Shown: positions 45,359 through 54,300 of the stretch, piece after piece
How the letters are laid out: every line of letters begins with the position of its first letter
Numbering within the stretch: the stretch's first letter is position 1
Assembly (NCBI GenBank): GCA_960531495.1
Contig: OY482853.1
Coordinates: 2,027,565 to 2,091,564 of the forward strand
Source: Zeus faber
Lineage: Eukaryota; Chordata; Actinopteri; Zeiformes; Zeidae
Reading direction: 5' to 3'
Length of the DNA stretch: 64,000 nt
Program-made: the position numbers and the translations under genes
The notes under the pieces: generated by a model
What the model was told of the DNA's origin: nothing
The model's input: only the letters and a program-made list of their open reading frames with translations
Database searches by the model: none

Positions 45359-48300
45359 TCACAGGTAGCCCTCCTTCCTGAACTGCTCCTGCAGGATGTC
45401 ACGGTACTCATCGAAGCCGCCGTCAATCCTCCGCACGTTCCCCCCCTCGCACACCCACAGCTCCTTGCACACCAGGCGGATCAGACGCTCGTCGTGGGAG
45501 ACCAGGACCACGCCCCCCTGGGGAGAGGGGGGAGGTTAGTTTACTTTAAGTGTTTAAGTGTGTTGCCCAAAAATGCCTTTGTCCCCCTGAAAAAAAGATA
45601 AAATGAATCTCTGAAAATAAACATGTATTTTAAATATAAAATTTGAATCAGTCACTCAGGAGGCTCTGGCCGCTCAGCGCTGCCTTCTTCTGGCCAGAGC
45701 AGACAATACCACAAACACCAGGTGAACTATGGGTAAAATGGCTTCTCAGGAGAGTGTGGTACCTTGAACTTGTTGAGCGCCTTGGCCAGCGCCTCAATAG
45801 TCTCCATGTCCAGGTGGTTGGTGGGTTCATCCAGGACGTAGAAGTTTGGACTGAGAAGAACCAGAATCAGATGAAAAGGTCAGAGAGAGAGAGAGAGAGA
45901 GAGAGAGAGAGAGAGAGAGAGAGAGAGAGAGAGAGAGAGAGAGAGAGAGAGAGAGAGAGAGAGAGAGAGAGAGAGAGAGAGAGAGAGAGAGAGAGAGAGA
46001 GAGAGAGAGAGACTGTGTGTGTTCACCAGGGCATGGTCATCTGGGCGAAAGCCACCCTGCTCTTCTGCCCTCCCGACAGGCTGGCGACAGGGCGTGTGGC
46101 CAGCTCGCCCGTGATGCCGTAGCCCCCCAGCTGGTGGCGGTATTCCTCCTCCGGCCGACCTGCAGGAAACGCATCATCAGCAACATCATCAGTGACATGA
46201 AGCGTCATGAAGCAACACGAAGCGACACGATGCGTCATGATGCGTCATGATGCGACACTAAGCATCATGATGTGTCATGATGCGACACCAAGCGTCATGA
46301 TGCGACACCAAGCGTCATGATGCGACACCAAGCGTCATGATGCGACACAAAGCGTCATGATGCGACACCAAGCGTCATGATGCGACACCAAGCGTCAAGA
46401 TGCGACACCAAGCGTCATGATGCGACACCAAGCGTCATGATGCGACACCAAGCGTCATGATGCGACACTAAGCGTCATGATGTGTCATGATGCGACACTA
46501 AGCGTCATGATGCGACACAAAGCGTCATGATGCGACACAAAGCGTCATGATGCGACACAAAGCGTCATGATGCGACACAAAGCGTCATGATGCGACAATA
46601 AGCGGCATGATGCGTCATGATGCGACACGATACGTCACGATGCGACACTAAGCGTCATGATGTGTCATGATGCGACACCAAGCGTCATGATGCGACACCA
46701 AGCGTCATGATGCGACACTAAGCGTCATGATGCGACACTAAGCGTCATGATGCGTCATGATGCAACACCAAGCGTTATGATGCGTCATGATGCGTCATGA
46801 TGCAACACCAAGCGTTATGATGCGTCATGATGCGACACTCAGCATCATGATGCGTCATGATGCGACACCAAGCGTCATGATGCGACACCAAGCGTCATGA
46901 TGCGACACCAAGCGTCATGATGCGACACCAAGCGTCATGATGCGACACCAAGCGTCATGATGCGACACCAAGCGTCATGATGCGACACGAAGCGACACGA
47001 TGCGTCATGATGCGACACGAAGCGTTACCAAGCGTCATGATGCGTCATGATGCGACACTAAGCATCATGATGCGTCATGATGCGACACCAAGCGTCAAGA
47101 TGCGACACCAAGCGTCAAGATGCGACACCAAGCGTCATGATGCGACACCAAGCGTCGTGATGCGACACCAAGCGTCATGATGCGACACTAAGCGTCATGA
47201 TGTGTCATGATGCGACACTAAGCGTCATGATTCGACACTAAGCGTCATGATGCGACACAAAGCGTCATGATGCGACAATAAGCGGCATGATGCGTCATGA
47301 TGCGACACGATACGTCACGATGCGACACTAAGCGTCATGATGTGTCATGATGCGACACCAAGCGTCATGATGCGACACCAAGCGTCATGATGCGACACTA
47401 AGCGTCATGATGTGTCAGGATGCGACACTAAGCGTCATGATGCGTCATGATGCAACACCAAGCGTCATGATGCGTCATGATGCGACACTCAGCATCATGA
47501 TGCGTCATGATGCGACACCAAGCGTCATGATGCGACACCAAGCGTCATGATGCGACACTAAGCGTCATGATGTGTCATGATGCGACACTAAGCGTCATGA
47601 TGTGTCATGATGCGACACTAAGCGTCATGATGCGACACTAAGCGTCATGATGCGACACTAAGCGTCATGATGCGTCATGATGCGACACCAAGCGTCATGA
47701 TGCGACACCAAGAGTCATGATGCGACACCAAGCGTCATGATGCGAAACCAAGCGTCATGATGCGACACTAAGCGTCATGATGCGACACTAAGCGTCATGA
47801 TGCGACACCAAGCGTCATGATGCGACACCAAGCGTCATGATGTGTCATGATGCGACACAAAGCGTCATGATGCGACACCAAGCGTCATGATGCGACACAA
47901 AGCGTCATGATGCGACAATAAGCGGCATGATGTGTCATGATGCGACACGATACGTCACGATGCGACACTAAGCGTCATGATGTGTCATGATGCGACACCA
48001 AGCGTCATGATGCGACACCAAGCGTCATGATGCGTCATGATGCGACACTCAGCATCATGATGCGTCATGATGCGACACCAAGCGTCATGATGCGACACCA
48101 AGCGTCATGATGCGACACCAAGCGTCATGATGCGACACCAAGCGTCATGATGCGACACCAAGCGTCAAGATGCGACACCAAGCGTCATGATGCGACACCA
48201 AGCGTCATGATGCGACACTAAGCGTCATGATGTGTCATGATGCGACACTAAGCATCATGATGCGACACAAAGCGTCATGATGCGACACAAAGCGTCATGA

Positions 48301-51300: not shown

Positions 51301-54300
51301 TGCGACACTAAGCGTCATGATGCGACACTAAGCGTCATGATGCGACACTAAGCGTCATGATGCGACACTAAGCGTCATGATGCGACACCAAGCGTCATGA
51401 TGCGACACCAAGCGTCATGATGCGACACCAAGCGTCATGATGCGACACCAAGCGTCATGATGCGACACCAAGCGTCATGATGCGACACTAAGCGTCATGA
51501 TGCGACACTAAGCGTCATGATGCGTCATGATGCGACACCAAGCGTCATGATGCGACACCAAGCGTCATGATGCGACACTAAGCGTCATGATGTGTCATGA
51601 TGCGACACTAAGCGTCATGATGCGTCATGATGCAACACCAAGCGTCATGATGCGTCATGTTGCGACACTCAGCATCATGATGCGTCATGATGCGACACCA
51701 AGCGTCATGATGCGACACCAAGCGTCATGATGCGACACCTAGCGTCATGATGCGACACCAAGCGTCAAGATGCGACAACAAGCGTCATGATGCGACACCA
51801 AGCGTCATGATGCGACACTAAGCGTCATGATGTGTCATGATGCGACACTAAGCGTCATGATGCGACACTAAGCGTCATGATGCGACACAAAGCGTCATGA
51901 TGCGACAATAAGCGGCATGATGCGTCACGATACGTCACGATGCGACACTAAGCGTCATGATGTGTCATGATGCGACACCAAGCGTCATGATGCGACACCA
52001 AGCGTCATGATGCGACACTAAGCGTCATGATGCGACACTAAGCGTCATGATGCGTCATGATGCAACACCAAGCGTCATGATGCGTCATGATGCGACACTC
52101 AGCATCATGATGCGTCATGATGCGACACCAAGCGTCATGATGCGACACCAAGCGTCATGATGCGACACCAAGCGTCATGATGCGACACCAAGCGTCATGA
52201 TGCGACACCAAGCGTCATGATGCGACACTAAGCGTCATGATATGTCATGATGCGACACTAAGCGCCATGATGCGACACTAAGCGTCATGATGCGACACTA
52301 AGCGTCATGATGCGACACTAAGCGTCATGATGCGTCATGATGCGACACCAAGCGTCATGATGCGACACCAAGCGTCATGATGCGACACCAAGCGTCATGA
52401 TGCAAAACCAAGCGTCATGATGCGACACCAAGCGTCATGATGCGACACCAAGCGTCATGATGCGACACCAAGCGTCATGAAGCGACACCAAGCGTCATGA
52501 AGCGACACCAAGCGACACGATGCGTCATGATGCGACACGATGCGTCATGATGCGACACGATGCGTCATGATGAGACACTAAGCGTCATGATGCGTCACGA
52601 TGCGACACCAAGCGTCATGATGCGTCACGATGCGACACCAAGCGTCATGATGCGACACCAAGCCTCATGATGCGACACCAAGCGTCATGATGCGACACCA
52701 AGCGTCATGATGCGACACCAAGCGTCATGATGCGACACCAAGCGTCATGATGCGACACTAAGCGTCATGATGCGACACCAAGCGTCATGATGCGACACGA
52801 TGTGACACGAAGCGTCATGATGCGACACCAAGCGACACGATGCGTCATGATGCGACACTAAGCGTCATGATGCGTCATGATGCGACACTAAGCGTCATGA
52901 TGCGACACCAAGCGTCATGATGCGACACTAAGCGTCATGATGCGTCATGATGAGACACTAAGCGTCATGATGCGACACCAAGCGTCATGATGCGACACCA
53001 AGCGTCATGATGCGACACCAAGCGTCATGATGTGTCATGATGCGTCACGATGCGACACTAAGCGTCATGATGCGACACTAAGCGTCATGATGTGTCATGA
53101 TGCGACACTAAGCGTCATGATGCGACACCAAGCATCACATCATGACACTTCATGACACTTCATGACGCATCGTCAAATGACGCTTCATGGCGCATCATGA
53201 TGTTTCACGACGCATCATGAAGCGTCATTTGACGAATTTGAAATATTTCAAATCTCAAACAGCTTCTGTCAGTCACAATCTGTCACGATCAGTCAGAGGA
53301 AAATAATATTTTCCTCTGACTGATGGTTGGTGCTTGATGCAGCAGGGCGTGGCTCGCTGTCATTAGCTTCTTTTGTTTTAACCAATCAGCTCCTTTTAAT
53401 CTTCTGCCATTTTGCAACTCTGGTTTCGTCTCTGGTTGTTTCAGGGTTTGTTGTGGTCTTCATGAATATTCATGAGACAACTATCATACACTGAGGATAT
53501 GTCAGTCTATATTACTACTTCTCATCCGGTTAGCTACTAGTAACTCAAATAAGTTAAAGTGTCACATTTTACACAAGTCAACCAAAAAATGATACTAGTT
53601 ACAACAGGAATATTCAAATTAATAACTACTAGTATTACATTTTTAGAAACTAGGAACATTGCAATAGTTACTAGTAACAATTGTATTGGTATCTAATAAA
53701 TAATTATTAGTTCCTTATACATTTGACTATTAAAACAAAAAAAGGTTACTCGTACTGTTGAAACAGCAACTAAAATGGAGGTGCTACAGCAGTTTTTCTC
53801 ATGGATAAAATGTTGAAGCAGCTTGAGGCACCCTGCAGCCTCCACCTCCTACCCTGCAGCCTCCACCTCCTACCCTGCAGCCTCCACCTCCTACCCTGCA
53901 GCCTCCACCTCCTACCCTGCAGCCTCCACCTCCTACCCTGCAGCCTCCACCTCCTACCCTGCAGCCTCCACATCCTACCCTGCAGCCTCCACATCCTACC
54001 CTGCAGCCTCCACATCCTACCCTGCAGCCTCCACATCCTACCCTGCAGCCTCCACCTCCACAGAATAACCTTGACGTGGACATTTTGACCTTTACTGTGT
54101 GTGTGTGTGTGTGTGTGTGTGTGTGTGTGTGTGTGTCTGTGAGGATGGCTCCATTGATTATCATGACATCATCCTCTGATCACATCATTACTAGAGAACA
54201 TCGTGATCTTTTTTTAAATCCTGTTTCCATCCAAATACCAAAGGAATTTCAAGCCGATGTGAGGAAACAAAGTGATGAGGTGAGTTTCCATCTGCTGGCT

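Follow-up and report, generated by a model that had tools for sequence, protein, structure and literature searches.

The locus and the intron that holds the array

The DNA analysed here (the window) is a stretch of 64,000 nucleotides, positions 2027565-2091564 of contig C9, in a genome of 803 Mb and 153 contigs. It carries a gene of the ABCF type on its minus strand, one intron of which is filled to about four-fifths by a tandem array of 10-bp blocks. The features that define the locus are as follows:

46027..46159, minus strand: exon downstream of the array in transcript order, containing LSGGQ (translation and PDB match)
46160..54662, minus strand: intron of the ABCF gene, GT..AG, about 82% array (splice sites predicted from the GT..AG ends and a continuous frame in the sequence and its translations)
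54663..54758, upper bound approximate, minus strand: exon upstream of the array in transcript order, containing INRFPG (translation)
46190..53139, no strand assigned: tandem array in one register, dimer AAGCGTCATG/ATGCGACAC(C,T), with decayed edges (block reading, alignment and phase scan)
53140..53235, no strand assigned: decayed right fringe with half-unit phase, inverted copies and an imperfect palindrome (phase and palindrome scans)

The first 41 residues of the exon at 46027..46159 match PDB entries for ABCF1 (5zxd, E 4.3e-7) and ARB1, together with two YheS entries. The same exon matches Pfam ABC_tran at E 0.0035, short of the Pfam cut-off; a further exon of the gene matches Pfam ABC_tran_Xtn (E 8.7e-10), and the last exon gave no Pfam match. 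An earlier note on this DNA had placed the array inside an ABCF intron, and our reading of the sequence bears this out; that the gene is ABCF3 rather than another ABCF is our assumption, based on the human sequence and on the identification made in that note. The low edge of the array lies about 30 bp from the predicted 3' splice site, and two CTGAT motifs in this short interval could be candidate branch points.

A coding reading of the array is rejected for want of an open frame: each of the six frames contains 151-171 stops, and the longest open stretch is 79 aa. A known structured RNA was rejected as well, as Rfam families gave zero matches at gathering scores over 46100-54700 on both strands. 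The same intron also holds a second array (53830-54059), which consists of 11 copies of a 21-bp unit, 99% matching and without indels.

A 20-bp dimer kept in a 10-bp register

Direct block reading yielded 693 consecutive 10-bp blocks of 35 types between 46200 and 53129, with no off-register indel; counted through to 53149, the array comprises 695 blocks of 37 types. Wraparound alignment of the array to AAGCGTCATG returned 692 full units, 35 substitution-only types and zero indel types. When the other block, ATGCGACACC, served as the reference for the same DNA, 24 apparent indel events were called, which we take as alignment noise from a poorer fit, because block reading and the phase scan show none. 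That scan (30-bp windows, 10-bp steps) found the array's own phase to be best from 46180 to 53130, weakly so at both ends. The earlier claim of some 695 blocks without a phase-shifting indel therefore holds for the array proper, and so does the word "unbroken" that went with it, which does not extend to the decayed right fringe.

At the left edge, the block at 46190 is an in-register copy that has degraded. On the right, strict register stops at about 53139. The DNA at 53140-53169 is best read with a half-unit offset; between 53170 and about 53229 the phase of the array is regained, though with weak scores, in DNA that also holds inverted copies. The imperfect palindrome of this fringe (53170-53235) has 31-nt arms at 87%. 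Just past the array, at 53285-53327, lies a near-perfect palindrome with 21-nt arms that are 95% complementary and separated by 1 nt.

Two checks that had been proposed earlier, of block length and of autocorrelation, found all 693 blocks to be exactly 10 bp long and the main autocorrelation peak to lie at 20 bp (0.847 vs 0.632 at 10 bp). The basic unit is therefore a 20-bp dimer, AAGCGTCATG + ATGCGACAC(C/T). Strict alignment with a 20-bp unit gave 358 units and 63 events, and TRF reported 8% indels at this unit length; we attribute both to single 10-bp blocks gained or lost.

A CpG occupies one fixed place in 625 of the 693 blocks, and the 656 CpGs of the array amount to an observed/expected ratio of 1.43, compared with 0.53 elsewhere in the window. 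The main CpG place reads TG in 34 of 693 blocks and CA in 30, forms suggestive of decay of methylated CpG. The high CpG content would fit either a young array or one that is unmethylated in the germ line. Nine block types occur as single copies among the 693.

Internal duplications and change by whole units

Long internal duplications could be delimited by alignment of the array with itself:

48990..50560, no strand assigned: first copy of a young internal duplication of about 1.5 kb (block alignment to 50720-52180)
50720..52180, no strand assigned: second copy of the young duplication (block alignment and exact runs)
46490..47500, no strand assigned: older internal duplicate, matching 48280-49240 (block alignment)

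The two copies of the young duplication align over 145 blocks (1,450 bp) and differ by 5 base changes and by 6 whole-unit gaps (50, 20, 20, 10, 10 and 20 bp); one of the base changes, beside a 10-bp gap, may be part of the same loss. Exact repeated runs of 390, 360, 270 and 190 bp occur at shifts of 1730, 1680, 1660 and 1640. The older pair aligns over 91 blocks, with 13 base changes and 4 gaps (40, 40, 50 and 20 bp), and two further pairings are more changed: one has 19 of 73 blocks altered and 9 gaps, the other 6 of 38 blocks altered and 4 gaps. A single gap among these, of 570 bp, falls where the pieces do not correspond. The earlier proposal that length change is confined to whole units is supported by the shifts of the exact runs and by the two best duplicate pairs, which differ by gaps of 10, 20, 40 and 50 bp; in these block-level alignments gaps are multiples of ten by construction, and the wraparound alignment is the independent test.

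Words of 12 blocks that are present two or more times account for 72% of the array's blocks; in 40 Markov controls this coverage averaged 4.7% and never exceeded 14%. The block ATGCGTCATG, found in 57 copies, carries the head of ATGCGACACC and the tail of AAGCGTCATG, a composition that would result if 10 bp were lost at the GCG which these two blocks share. As a short unit (the 20-bp dimer, inside the range of about 6-100 bp) repeated head-to-tail through 693 blocks, beyond the minimum of 0.5 kb, the array is a minisatellite. It also shows higher-order repeat structure, in that multi-unit blocks are more alike than neighbouring units; a single regular higher-order period was not seen, as shifts of 1640-1790 occur together with several others.

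Apparent restriction to one locus

A sequence search of the genome placed 68 of 69 matches inside the array, a lower bound since very common words are skipped by the search; the sole match elsewhere, on contig C2, belongs to a different, TGTCGCTTGG-like repeat. A pattern search returned 120 matches, again a lower bound because very common words were skipped, and at least 82 of them (82 among the 100 matches listed) fall in the array or its edges. As far as these two lower-bound searches show, the array is restricted to a single locus. An ordinary genome-wide satellite, which the earlier note had named as the finding that would overturn its view of the array, is not supported by matches so concentrated at one place.

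The right flank (53131-53540), used as a query, matched itself once in full, its own reverse strand twice as palindromes, and three partial places elsewhere in the genome at 70-81% identity. A mobile-element origin, though conceivable, is not supported by these flank matches.

How surprising is the lack of off-register indels?

A minimum spanning tree of the 35 block types takes 35 base steps, and its 33 single-base edges comprise 6 CpG transitions, 7 other transitions and 20 transversions. In a simple binomial calculation, the probability of zero indels in 34 is 0.36 for an indel share of 3%, 0.18 for 5% and 0.03 for 10%.

We also simulated growth with in-register exchange, crudely and with assumed rates, keeping only runs with 30-42 substitution types. 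In the two best-fitting settings, those whose median type number came near 35, the probability of zero off-register types was 0.40-0.43 at an indel:substitution ratio of 0.02, 0.27-0.28 at 0.03, 0.11-0.13 at 0.05, 0.03-0.04 at 0.083 and 0.003-0.011 at 0.125. At the same five ratios, the corresponding values from the remaining two settings were 0.22-0.40, 0.12-0.25, 0-0.03, 0-0.006 and 0; one of the four settings kept just 17-70 of 1,500 runs. A first, cruder simulation, superseded by this one, had kept runs with 28-45 total types and allowed silent self-substitutions; its zero-indel runs numbered 6 of 285, 1 of 238 and 0 of 206 at ratios of 0.05, 0.083 and 0.125, and 1 of 10, 0 of 8 and 0 of 7 when the rate was higher. 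The outcome hinges on the local indel:substitution ratio, with zero expected in at most 4% of runs at ratios of 0.083 and above, and the simulations leave room for a mild real deficit of off-register indels.

Control arrays were taken from 271 kb including the window. Filtering of 26 arrays, the target among them, for periods no longer than 60 bp and a minimum of 8 copies dropped 6 and left 19 control pieces, of which 4 lie in the window, 12 in 160 kb by its low end and 3 on contigs C10 and C14. The sample is not random in that loci L015 and L028-L031 were picked since a search match lay there, and the end of L044 and the start of L045 are one array split by the locus border and counted as two of the 19. 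Wraparound alignment found 6 of the 19 pieces to be without an indel type, and none of these comes near 7 kb in length; the longest such control, counted as two of the six, is a 1,327-bp array that keeps a 45-bp register throughout. The remaining pieces show 1.6 to 64 events per kb, and a 1.9-kb array with a 19-bp unit has 3 events. Taken together, the 19 controls have 569 unit types; indels occur in 152 of these, and three irregular arrays contribute 120 of the 152. The array under study is at the stable end for its length and, among the slip-free arrays sampled here, stands out as unusually long; nothing marks it as different in kind from the others.

Several neighbouring or sampled arrays deserve mention in their own right. 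By contrast with the target, a 2.2-kb array of ACAACATCACATGAC-like units within the window (30052-32225) shows about 49 indel events per kb. Also within the window, at 38732-39952, the 7-bp unit CCTCCCT is repeated 175 times, and the two strands differ strongly in composition (GC skew -0.61 in 38001-40000). About 105-110 kb from the low end of the window, locus L037 contains a 4.5-kb array (522-4997) with an 18-bp ACA/GCA-type unit and 63% matching. On C10 and C14, two arrays have 10-bp units or subunits: CGCTTCCAGA (L028, 4985-5461), with no indels in 47 units, and an irregular, GACGTTTCAT-like array (L029, 4998-5752).

Modelled curvature, array periods and folding

In a bend model built on twist and roll values for dinucleotides, the mean net bend of the array is 6.1, 7.1, 5.8, 7.3 and 10.1 degrees over 60, 105, 210, 420 and 840 bp, compared with 14.2, 14.7, 11.7, 16.7 and 23.1 degrees for permuted arrays, and this mean is equalled or exceeded by 79-88% of 300 permuted arrays. 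The modelled bend is also below that of other DNA in the window. Raised intrinsic curvature was not found at any of these five lengths, and a curved-satellite reading is rejected, with the modelled bend below the permuted-array mean.

The periods of TRF arrays range from 7 to 45 bp, and 20 of 121 are multiples of 10. By place, these make up 12 of 45 arrays in the window (9 with period 20) and 8 of 76 outside it, an excess in the window that is mild, local, post hoc and mostly a matter of period 20. Period 20 is itself frequent in the window (9 of 45 arrays of period 7-45 bp, vs 3 of 76 in the other sampled loci).

One 300-nt piece of minus-strand RNA, the transcript strand, has a predicted fold with z -4.0 relative to dinucleotide shuffles. 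Three 240-nt segments, the three of five used in the permutation control, are predicted to fold more strongly than permuted arrays, a level reached by 0 of 60 permutations on the plus strand and 1 of 60 on the minus strand. The consensus unit shows no significant complementarity to itself, with p 0.83 for Watson-Crick pairs and p 0.086 once G-U pairs are included. The predicted strong folding of both strands is a lead only.

Discussion

The array is probably a large intronic minisatellite with higher-order structure that changes by in-register exchange, its phase being a by-product of homology. Misaligned strands or chromatids would pair where the repeat is in register, and slippage, unequal crossing over and conversion would then add or remove whole blocks. 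With turnover outpacing point mutation, a large part of the 7 kb would stem from recent copying, and stray indels would have had little time and little separate history in which to arise. The 10-bp phase would then be a by-product of homology rather than a selected property and, since homology-guided exchange keeps register, the perfect rhythm would be mostly what whole-unit copying gives. Support for exchange comes from the youngest duplicate pair, where 1,450 aligned bp contain 6 whole-unit gaps and 5 base changes. Decay is greatest at the edges of the array, as expected under exchange if mainly the interior is homogenised. Selection on length, which the earlier note had considered, finds no evidence here, nor is it needed, because homologous repeats ordinarily exchange by whole units.

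The same lack of indels could reflect an array that is actively locked in phase, in which repeat recombination removes off-register copies while substitutions and whole-unit changes pile up, mismatch-sensitive exchange rejecting units with small indels or converting them back. The contrast between zero indel types and 35 substitution-only types in 6.9 kb is what such a process would leave, and zero was uncommon in the simulations at ratios of 0.083 and above; yet it was common or not very surprising at 0.02-0.05 in the best-fitting settings, and other arrays on the same chromosome gain indels, up to 64 events per kb, which speaks against a general rule. We regard active locking as improbable. 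Fold-back hairpins of the strands might instead have driven expansion, a view that draws on the z score of the minus-strand piece, on the better folding of both strands than of permuted arrays and on the palindromes at the array's right edge. The consensus unit is not significantly self-complementary, however, and the permutation control loses GC-rich stacks, so that the folding result may be one of composition; hairpin-driven expansion is improbable.

Long arrays can be collapsed in assemblies, and smoothing or mis-sizing of the present one, which is read from a single assembly, could in principle hide real indels or length. Smoothing would, however, tend to erase the single-copy block types (9 among the 693 blocks) and the differences between duplicates, all of which remain, and indels do appear in neighbouring arrays of this assembly, making an assembly effect very unlikely. 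Least probable is that selection keeps the 10-bp period for its match to the helical turn, setting nucleosome or protein contacts. The period of 10, the CpG at the same place in most blocks and the share of multiples of 10 in the window are in its favour, yet there is no such excess outside the window and the modelled bend is not raised. A helical turn takes 10.5 bp, against which a 10.0-bp repeat drifts, and contacts would therefore leave one face of the DNA; the one-face contacts suggested earlier are thus not supported.

The locus is a clean natural case of whole-unit turnover, in which the block string records duplications. Comparison of alleles at the locus would show how unit changes, substitutions and small indels relate in number, and if the lack of small indels held against a measured local rate, this would point to active removal of out-of-register copies. 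As the evidence stands, the array looks like a large but ordinary minisatellite.

Our literature searches brought up one VNTR paper for intronic minisatellites with 10-bp repeats and none on such arrays with hairpin and palindrome. The nearest described case that we found is TRACT, a 30-bp intronic VNTR of human CACNA1C that spans 3 to more than 30 kb and whose commonest unit variants are one substitution apart (PMC13131567). The sections of that paper drawn on here describe expansion through repeat tracts and also mention long tandem duplications by recombination; in the main text from which they come, the word "indel" does not appear. Both arrays are intronic, several kb long and varied by single substitutions, whereas TRACT has a 30-bp unit, is human and comes with population data, and the present array has a 10/20-bp unit and is known from one assembly. 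A second likeness is with the higher-order repeats of satellites, a well-described class in which, according to PMC8122249, diverged basic units are arranged in longer, far more similar blocks, and exchange homogenises these blocks by concerted evolution, with Smith's model named. The present array shares the diverged units and the longer similar blocks, and probably the exchange, although satellite higher-order repeats form large families and the present array is 7 kb at one place. It takes its place beside both as a new example.
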